From Antrodiella citrinella (lineage: Eukaryota; Basidiomycota; Agaricomycetes; Polyporales; Steccherinaceae): DNA of 64,000 nucleotides. Within the stretch, counting starts at the first letter, position 1. The number at the start of each line of letters is the position of its first letter. The DNA lies in the NCBI GenBank assembly GCA_004802725.1, contig SGPM01000094.1, positions 21,639 through 85,638 on the forward strand, given 5' to 3'. The translations under genes and the position numbers were made by a program. Below are positions 16,227 to 18,464 of this stretch, piece after piece. The notes under the pieces were generated by a model that had not been told where the DNA came from, made no database searches, and saw only the letters and a program-made list of their open reading frames with translations.

Positions 16227-16766
16227 AGTTGAAAACATTACCTTGCGAGCGCCCTGAAGAGTCTCAGAATCAGGACTGGGATCTTGGTACTGAGCACTGA
16301 GTGTAGCGGTATGAAGACGAATCACGATCAATCGAACCCGCTCGGAGAAAGCCGGAAGGCTGTCGTGTAGATCCAGATTTGGCAGGTATACAAGTTCACA
16401 CTGGCAAAAGCGAGCTCGTTCACAGAAAAAGTCGAGTCTTTCTCAGTGTCATGGATATGTTATACACGTAGCCCAAATTCTCTAGCATTGATATATACAG
16501 TACTGAATACAATGTCCGAGTACGCGCATCGGCTATTGTCAGCCTCTGATAACCTCTCCATAACAGCGGCTGCCAGCATGCCAGCTCTGCAGCCCCAAAC
16601 CTAACGACCGTCAGCCCTCCTTCGACTTGGTATATGACCCTCCTCCAACCCTCAACCCTCTCTTTCTTCTCAACCACCACCATCTTCCTCTTCCCCGCTT
16701 CTTTCTCCGGTCCGCGGTGAGTCCCTCCTGCCGCTCCTCCATCCGATCCACGTCTGACCCTTCCTC

Positions 16767-16807
16767 TTATAAGCGCTCCCTTCTCTCTCTATTCTATTCT
16801 CTCTCCT
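16767..16807 (+). promoter_or_regulatory. TATA-like box plus CT-rich tract upstream of the splice-donor array
   Basis: TTATAAGC at 16767-16774 is followed by an almost pure pyrimidine run (16776-16807, CTCCCTTCTCTCTCTATTC and on). This arrangement is typical of strongly transcribed fungal polymerase II genes, where start sites fall at the end of the CT tract. No protein-coding gene on the + strand begins nearby, so it would drive a transcript through the donor-motif array. Promoter activity is inferred. Confidence 0.4.
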
Positions 16808-16829
16808 ACGTTTACGTCTCGTCAAGCTT

Positions 16830-17668
16830 AGGTGAGCATAGTCATCCTCTTCGTCGTTGACCATGTGGCTGACATGTGTCCCGTCGTCGGATATAGGTGA
16901 GTGTTGTCTTGTCTTGAGGGTGGCTGGGGTTGGGGCCCGGGCAGGGTGGGGTGGAGCGTAGGTCGGTCGTCGTCGAGGTTTGGTGAAGGTGAGTCTGTCG
17001 TCAGGTCGGGGTGTATGTCGTTAAGAGGTAAGTTTGGAGGTTGATGGTCGTGCTGAGGTGAGTCGCTTCGAGATACGTCTTGCCAAGGTACGTCTTCCCT
17101 TGTCGAGGTGTGTCGTGTCTAGGTGAGTCGTTTCTTGAGGGTTTGTCGTTCCAAGGTACGTCCTCATCAAGGTACGTCTTCTCTCCTGAGTCGGTTTCAA
17201 AGGTGAGTCGCATCAAGGTACGTCTTCTGTTCTCGTCTCGAGGTGAGTCGCTCCGAGGTATGTCTTTCTTTTCTCTGCCTGTCGTATCAAGGTAAGTCAT
17301 TCGTTTCAAGGTGAGTCGTCTCTGAGGAGGTAAGTCGGTACGTCTTTTGGTAAGTCTTTTTTTTGCTAGGTCGTGTCGATGTAAGTCAATCAAGGTAAGT
17401 CGTCCAAGGTACGCCTTTAATTCGAAGTAAGTCAGTTCAAGGTGAGTGCGTTCCAAGGTAAGTTTTCTCGAGGTAAATATTTCCTTTCTGCGTCTCTAGA
17501 AGGTGAGTCGTTTCCGTCAGAAGATAAATCACTTGAAGGTACGTCTCTTCTTCTCAAAGGTAGGTCGTCTCAGGTATGTTCAAGTTGATCTGTTTCAAGG
17601 TAAGTCGTTCGCTTCAAGGTAGGTCANTATTTCTCGATTATTTTTCCGGCCAGAGGTAAGTGTTTCCT
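16830..17668 (+). repeat. Degenerate array of about 35 5'-splice-site-like units
   Basis: The + strand carries an irregular array, units mostly 15-40 nt apart, of variants of AAGGTRAGTC and AAGGTACGTC. By eye the exact 10-mers AGGTGAGTCG occur six times, AAGGTACGTC five times and AAGGTAAGTC three times; near matches bring the total to about 35. Between cores the sequence is T/C-rich (TCGTTTC, CTTCTC). Each core is a strong 5' splice site for U1 and, preceded by CAAG or GAG, also resembles AG/GT zero-length-exon (recursive) sites. The densest part is 16983-17668. The reverse strand is open for 151 codons (17456-17001) only because the units lack stops; its product is low-complexity and not believable as a protein. 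One N lies near 17627. Confidence 0.85.
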
Positions 17669-17678
17669 ACCTCGAGGG

Positions 17679-17704
17679 AGGGCAGGTGGGCAACCACCTG
17701 TCCT
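17679..17704 (+). other. RNA-like hairpin with GNRA (GCAA) tetraloop
   Basis: AGGGCAGGTGG at 17679-17689 pairs with CCACCTGTCCT at 17694-17704 around the loop GCAA. That is eleven base pairs with a single G-U wobble. GNRA loops and wobble-tolerant stems are marks of functional RNA. It begins about 10 nt after the last donor-like unit. Confidence 0.7.
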
Positions 17705-17709
17705 GGCGC

Positions 17710-17778
17710 GGACCTTTACGTGGTCCTCGGGATAAGTACCTCTCCCTTCTACCTTCTTCGGAGGGTAGCGGGGAGAGG
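17710..17778 (+). other. Two further hairpins, the second with C(UUCG)G tetraloop
   Basis: GGACC (17710-17714) pairs with GGTCC (17722-17726) around a 7-nt loop. Next, CCTCTCCC (17739-17746) pairs with GGGAGAGG (17771-17778). The stem continues inward through CTACC/GGTAG, with one mismatch and two T-G pairs, to C(TTCG)G at 17756-17761, the exceptionally stable UUCG tetraloop. The whole arm has about 17 pairs. With the preceding GNRA hairpin it suggests a folded RNA 3' domain after the donor array. Confidence 0.65.
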
Positions 17779-18464
17779 GAAACCAACACGCGCCTTAAGG
17801 TTTGTTGTCAATATGATGTTTCGAATAGACGATAGTATCATTTGGATGCGTACATCATTCGAGGTTGTGTTTACGAACGAGAGCTCCGAGGCGCAGTACG
17901 TAGTCAAGAGCATGACAATCTTCGAACATGGGGTGAATCCGTACGACATGTTCCGCTTCGCTTTTCCGCGAGAACTGGTGACGCCATACACTGAAAGAGA
18001 ATTACTGAGCAGCGGTCCAAGGGAATGGCTGAACAGCTGCGATTTGTGTCAACATGACAGATGAGTCGCAGAGGACACTGCTGAAAGTATATTTCAGCGG
18101 AATAGCGGTGTACAAAACTATGACCACGTGCCCTCACACTGCCCTTCGTGATGCTTCCTCAAGTTCCTGGACCATTTCCTTTCGCAAACTTGCGTTCAAG
18201 TCGCTTCGTACAACTCGGTACGAGTCGTACCATGAAAGATCTGTAAGATCTGACATTGGGCGGCGGGCGCTGCTCAACTGCCCAATCACACGCCAGAGAT
18301 CCCAAATTTTGCGCCGGCCACCGTGGCGGTCCTCCTATGTCCTCCTTTTCAGTTTCAAACGCTCACGACGACCGTCTGCACAGGTTCAGACGAGGACAAC
18401 GCCTTCCTCATCCTCATTATTCCTGTACATTCTTCTAGACCCATACCCCATAGAGATCCTCCTC

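Follow-up and report, generated by a model that had tools for sequence, protein, structure and literature searches.

A candidate fungal noncoding RNA gene with a splice-donor-like array and a predicted 3′ HDV-like ribozyme

INTRODUCTION

Why would a fungal genome carry dozens of sequences resembling 5′ splice sites side by side on one strand? The question is raised by a 64,000-nucleotide stretch of Antrodiella citrinella DNA (G000:C597:21639-85638; hereafter called the window). An initial annotation of this DNA described an array of about 35 donor-like units and proposed a noncoding RNA that either binds many U1 snRNPs or is spliced stepwise, with a decayed minisatellite as the neutral alternative. 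We examined the locus and searched the assembly to which it belongs (30,003,328 bases in 602 contigs). Pfam searches with ten open reading frames (ORFs) of the window identified a BCS1-type AAA ATPase, RRP7, a GATA finger, and two methyltransferase types; short GTRNGT introns can also be recognized.

RESULTS AND DISCUSSION

A donor-like array on one strand

Motif counts and letter matching place an array of 33 GTRNGT donor-like motifs, in units near AAGGTRNGTCGTTTC, at positions 16897..17661 of the plus strand. The count was made over 16880-17668, and the minus strand carries no such motif across 16897-17661. An exact recount of the 10-mers quoted in the initial annotation agrees with the figures given in that note: AGGTGAGTCG occurs six times, AAGGTACGTC five times, and AAGGTAAGTC three times on the plus strand of 16830-17668, and none of them is present on the minus strand. 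The estimate of about 35 units is also fair, because plain letter matching to AAGGTAAGTC with up to three mismatches yields 36. Neighboring GGTRNGT cores are frequently 15-20 or 30-34 bases apart.

The array is genuine and departs strongly from random expectation. The word AGGTRNGT is found 26 times in 16830-17668; 2000 first-order Markov sequences matched in composition contained it 0.52 times on average and never more than 4 times. Elsewhere in the window, no 839-base stretch contains more than 3 (steps of 50 bases, both strands). The predicted minimum free energy of the array is −221.0, versus −215.3 (sd 6.5) in 20 shuffles, which is no clear signal. Likewise, the mean unpaired probability hardly differs between cores (0.385) and spacers (0.345).

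Two further copies of the array are present in the genome, on contigs C139 and C197. The first is 96% identical to window positions 16349-18173, where the match halts at the end of contig C139, and it is either an allele or a duplicate. The second is 72% identical to the window over 16551-17404 and 75% identical over 17654-18210. When the genome was searched for paired AGGTRNGTC words 6-30 bases apart, 41 matches were returned (reversed control, 5): 15 at the window locus, 14 on C139, 11 on C197, and one on C400.

The array adjoins a predicted HDV-like ribozyme

The initial annotation treated the array as an isolated element. The array itself stands, and what was missed is that it runs straight into a predicted HDV-like ribozyme common to 25 loci. 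When the whole locus was used as the query, many contigs gave short matches in its 3′ portion. A 30-base ribozyme core, at up to three mismatches, has 25 genomic matches, and a pattern derived from the ribozyme 3′ side also has 25; the reversed control gave 0 for the core, as did the control for the 3′-side pattern. The two lists differ by one locus each way, and thus there are 26 loci. The 26th, L082 (C14:32150-32700), has an internal deletion in the ribozyme and is probably dead; it keeps the donor before the ribozyme. Inspection by eye of the ORF lists of 25 ribozyme loci revealed no obvious common long ORF except in close copies. Pattern searches of viral or prokaryotic contig collections gave 0 matches, a result with no bearing on fungal relatives.

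The predicted ribozyme spans 17671..17798 on the plus strand, as supported by pair counts and by its 25 copies (reversed control, 0). All of its elements are read on this strand. P1 would form between 17671-17677 and 17725-17731, P2 between 17705-17710 and 17789-17794, and P3 between 17711-17714 and 17722-17725, with L3 at 17715-17721. P4 begins at 17739, and an extra hairpin would pair 17680-17685 with 17698-17703. Pairing counts over 25 copies give the strand order P1, P2, P3, P1′, P4, P2′, which is that of a nested double pseudoknot. By analogy with fungal HDV variants, self-cleavage is predicted at the base of P1, between 17670 and 17671.

Among the 25 copies, 24 of them distinct, pairing is kept in 99.3% of 576 cells, whereas slid versions of the fold pair in 27-55%. 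Seven pairs change on both sides, compared to a shuffled mean of 2.8, and this number was reached in 1 of 500 shuffles. Three of these pairs are in P1, two in the extra hairpin, and two in P2; P3 and P4 exhibit no covariation in 25 copies. Further pair types in the 25 copies do not beat shuffles (19 versus 19.0). With a first set of 14 copies, four pairs changed on both sides versus 2.6 in shuffles, 62 of 500 of which were as high, and two covariation measures failed to beat shuffles.

P1 pairs at 7 positions in all 25 copies (15 entirely Watson-Crick, 10 with one G-U), a count to be read with the knowledge that its 5′ strand was selected as the best-pairing 7-mer in a 115-nt stretch and that the seventh pair shares a base with P3. 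The C-G pair at the P1 base, where cleavage is predicted, is invariant (25/25). Four P1-like words inside the array are candidate extra ribozyme substrates. At P4, the alignment has AGUA facing GAA, letters that may correspond to loop E.

The window has no match in Rfam at gathering scores. With ten loci and E values up to 10, Rfam returned three chance-level matches, none of HDV type. The ribozyme is probably a variant of the fungal HDV group, with catalysis being predicted from its sequence and pairing. Li and Breaker (2017) reported 230 fungal HDV variants from 26 species; in the portions of that paper used here, the variants are marked by a cleavage-site C-G pair, by loop E in P4, and by an additional nucleotide separating P2 from P3 (PMC5640933). 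Two of the variants were shown to self-cleave, with cleavage at the base of P1 (PMC5640933). The window ribozyme shares with the variants so described the nested double pseudoknot P1-P4 and the C-G pair at the cleavage site, and its P4 may share loop E as well. In contrast, the extra P2-P3 nucleotide is absent, and the last P2 pair, which covaries from A-U to G-C, adjoins P3. An added hairpin between P1 and P2 also distinguishes the window ribozyme from the published variants as characterized in those portions. Furthermore, the gene associations given there vary widely (PMC5640933), whereas here the ribozyme goes together with a donor and with the terminus of a gene-like unit.

A donor before the predicted cut

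The last donor of the array, GTAAGT at 17656..17661 on the plus strand, is located 15 nt upstream of the predicted cut. A counterpart is found at most other loci: in 23 of 25 copies a GTRNGT precedes the predicted cut by 13-18 nt, the exceptions being L062 and L063. Outside the array this motif appears about once per 470 bases per strand, and therefore its chance occurrence over six positions is ∼1%. However, the copies are related: their upstream flanks define 8 groups, with a pre-cut donor in 6 of them, and their downstream flanks define 17. An argument that the pre-ribozyme donors vary only at +3 and +4 was dropped because the search pattern GTRNGT permits no other difference.

The boundaries of the conserved unit are clearest in family C (L067, L069, L071, L073, L074, L075, L076, and L080). 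For 24 of the 28 pairs within this family, the blast match covering the ribozyme (which ends at ∼+90) terminates between +87 and +99; the other four pairs end at +124, +142, +157, and +857. Families A, B, and D, as well as 3 of 6 pairs of family E, retain homology beyond the ribozyme. These end points indicate that the ribozyme marks the end of a conserved unit in family C and part of family E only. A mobile-element reading was not adopted: intron-like stretches are kept, no poly(A) tail was seen by eye in the ten loci inspected, and the left homology edges vary from pair to pair.

Other elements were noted upstream of the ribozymes. A different array, with units near CCCTCGACGGAGGATGCCC and possible small hairpins, occupies this position at L059, L061, L064, L065, L066, and L026 (C160, C203, C543 twice, C550, and C465). 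The sequence TCGACGGAGGATGCC has 29 genomic matches at up to one mismatch (reversed control, 2), including a cluster at C20:50632-50820 where neither the core nor the 3′-side pattern finds a ribozyme. In family C, a conserved and seemingly foldable stretch, ..GTTGCGTCCGCCTGAC.GGCTCGCGTGTGGTGGCGAC..CCTGCACCGAG.CCAGG, lies ∼330 to 250 bases upstream of the core (e.g., L067, L071, L073, and L082).

A likely TATA box and candidate introns

When the three copies are aligned by eye, a likely TATA box is apparent at 16631..16636 (plus strand); it reads TATATAA in C139 and C197 and is decayed to TATATG in the window. Candidate intron 1 (GTGAGT..CTGAC..) spans 16717..16773 on the same strand, as judged from the alignment by eye and from a fixed rule in copies L058 and L060, and it ends with AAG in the window and TAG in both C139 and C197. 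The initial annotation had named 16768-16773 as a promoter-like TATA. More plausibly, this sequence forms the 3′ terminus of a short intron; C139 reads TTATAG/G there. Candidate intron 2 (GTGAGC..CTGAC..ATATAG), recognized by eye and by the fixed rule, spans 16832..16896 on the plus strand and abuts the first array donor. Between the window and C197, the intron-like stretches are closer (0.90 and 0.89) than the exon-like stretches (0.68 and 0.80). This higher conservation would speak against pure introns, which would not require it.

A rule that looks for a TATA word with an intron-like stretch after it gave matches upstream of the ribozyme at 11 of the 25 loci and downstream of it at 2; the rule was written after some loci had been inspected, and in the window it picks the doubted TATA at 16768-16773. 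Both downstream matches are the promoter of a neighboring ribozyme copy. Tandem ribozymes on the same strand, ∼760 bases apart, exist at C573:75404/76173 and C599:54628/53871, and the second ribozyme of each pair has no TATA-plus-intron match of its own under this rule.

The array diverges like a splice donor

Departures from AAGGTAAGTC at positions −3 to +7 number 16, 4, 3, 2, 0, 11, 15, 2, 1, and 7 among the 36 window units. The same profile is seen in C139 (38 units) and C197 (37 units), and the heterogeneity among positions is significant in each copy (p <1e-9). The unit is free at −3 and +4, and also at +3, where A or G predominates.

A second view of constraint comes from differences between copies, for which the fixed positions were defined as −2, −1, +1, +2, +5, and +6. 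In the whole aligned array, the window and C197 differ at 14 of 177 fixed positions, 83 of 325 spacer positions, and 15 of 59 positions at +3/+4. Because misaligned repeats could mimic part of this effect, the comparison was repeated on ungapped blocks spanning 40 columns or more in which spacer identity was 0.65 or higher. Fixed positions then differ at 12/132, spacers at 47/205, and +3/+4 at 15/44 (p = 0.001 for fixed versus spacer and 0.0002 for fixed versus +3/+4). The corresponding values for C139 and C197, with one block at spacer identity 0.62 omitted, are 11/132, 31/165, and 15/44 (p = 0.012 and 0.0001).

The initial annotation had called for a check of whether cores are conserved over spacers. 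Such conservation is found between the window and C197, at the fixed positions and not at +3/+4, but is not found between the window and C139 (5/215 fixed versus 8/428 spacer), a pair with few changes that is uninformative. The proposed resemblance of the motif to a splice donor is upheld: −3, +3, and +4 vary freely, whether one compares units or copies. On these alignments, the divergence of the window from C197 is that of splice-donor degeneracy and not of uniform minisatellite decay.

The neutral alternative holds that the array consists of decayed ∼15-bp units whose founder resembled a donor by chance and was perhaps the donor preceding the ribozyme, and that this array is functionless inside a ribozyme-ended noncoding gene. 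Unit spacing near 15 and 30 fits this explanation, as do the irregularly placed indels that separate copies (the array aligns to C197 with 350 gap columns), the lack of visible extra constraint between the window and C139, and the loss from the window copy of several donors that C139 or C197 keep. However, the clustering of departures at −3, +3, and +4 in all three copies and the slower divergence of fixed positions relative to spacers in comparisons with C197 both argue against it. We retain this disfavored alternative as a serious rival and judge it to be rather unlikely.

Donors without recognizable splicing partners

The locus presents U1-site-like sequence without splicing partners: 33 GTRNGT motifs, no CTRAY branch site in the 789 bases of the array, and no acceptor signal in the 375 nt after the ribozyme in each of the three window-family copies. 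Among all ribozyme loci, acceptor-like sites are present downstream in 6 of 25, compared to 55 of 232 control windows, which is no enrichment.

These counts weigh on another explanation for the donor found upstream of the ribozyme in most copies, namely that the ribozyme is intronic and that self-cleavage rivals the splicing of these donors to an exon further on. Such an arrangement has a precedent in Cpeb3, whose intronic HDV-like ribozyme is reported to tune splicing in the portions consulted of PMC10919898. The two systems share an HDV-like ribozyme near splicing signals in a nuclear transcript, features that are predicted here. The Cpeb3 ribozyme has a downstream exon (PMC10919898), whereas no acceptor was seen at the window locus and homology in family C ends at the ribozyme. 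The 17 groups of downstream flanks, versus 8 of upstream flanks, also count against this explanation, and some 33 donors would be left unexplained. This explanation therefore appears improbable.

U1 might also not be the reader of the units; a different RNA-binding protein, for example, or a transcription factor acting on the DNA could recognize them instead. The C at +7 is retained in 31 of 38 units, and this position presumably falls outside U1 pairing. In addition, related families carry unrelated hairpin-unit arrays at the same place, and thus the arrays may serve different binders. Against such a reader, the free positions coincide with those of a splice donor. Moreover, the GT hexamers most strongly linked to intron-like context in the window outside the array are GTGAGT (9/50) and GTAAGT (6/36), relative to a base rate of 0.052. 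We consider a different reader quite improbable.

Recursive (zero-exon) splicing through the array, as suggested in the initial annotation, is not supported and seems highly improbable because only 3 of 33 array donors directly follow a YAG and CTRAY is absent from the array, even though one zero-exon layout (ATATAG/GTGAGT at 16896/16897) retains ATAG/GTGAGT in all three copies.

A proposed ribozyme-ended RNA gene

Since the array runs into a ribozyme common to 25 loci, it is better viewed as the body of a ribozyme-ended RNA gene than as an isolated array. The earlier suggestion of a noncoding, gene-like locus is borne out at the level of layout. The proposed gene would comprise a TATA box, one or two short 5′ introns, ∼33 donor-like motifs, and a 3′ self-cleaving HDV-like ribozyme. 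The nascent RNA would cut itself at 17670/17671, leaving an upstream part that ends without a poly(A) tail ∼9 nt past the last GTAAGT. Given that the donors lack a recognizable acceptor, U1 snRNP would bind many copies without splicing, and the many bound particles could hold the RNA on chromatin, protect it, or both. Transcription, self-cleavage, U1 binding, and the effect of U1 are steps that we infer. We assign an even chance to the existence of a noncoding RNA gene of this type, in which a ribozyme makes the 3′ end and acceptor-less donors bind U1 unspliced, with transcription, cleavage, and U1 binding all being predicted.

A broader proposal is offered tentatively, as something that may well prove incorrect. 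The loci might represent a class of fungal nuclear noncoding RNAs whose own HDV-like ribozyme makes the 3′ end and which carry an unspliceable U1 site before the cut. Within one family of three copies, roughly 33-fold amplification of this site would have created a multivalent U1 platform, able to keep the RNA on chromatin or to titrate U1. The U1 gene of this genome was not found with RF00003, which has no match in control genomes either, or with a pattern that gave 0 matches; a second pattern gave 11 matches (reversed control, 10), none convincing by eye.

Fission-yeast telomerase RNA offers a partial parallel. Its 3′ end is cut at a donor by the spliceosome, and a branch site is required. 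Both RNAs would have a donor near the 3′ end of a noncoding RNA, but no branch site is seen in the array, and a ribozyme is predicted to make the end. A second parallel is provided by reports that U1 keeps lncRNAs on chromatin in mammals and Arabidopsis (PMC12354759). As in the RNAs described in the consulted portions of that article, one of which is reported to be unspliced, several U1 sites would reside in a noncoding RNA. MUSHER has four putative U1 sites (PMC12354759), whereas the locus described here has ∼33 predicted ones beside a predicted ribozyme and belongs to a fungus.

Within the open-licence PMC literature, as represented by titles, the starts of abstracts, and passages, no ribozyme-ended noncoding RNA with a donor array is described. 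The ribozyme itself is probably a variant of an already known class. What is new relative to that literature is the pairing of the ribozyme with a conserved donor, together with the amplified donor array; neither was encountered there.

It would be notable for a noncoding RNA gene to make its 3′ end with its own ribozyme, and equally so for a natural RNA to carry dozens of U1 sites; here a single compact locus is predicted to combine the two. If this proposal is true, then site counts would offer a way to test, in a fungus, the splicing-independent role of U1 in retention or protection of RNA, and a biological context would emerge for some of the HDV-variant ribozymes of fungi.
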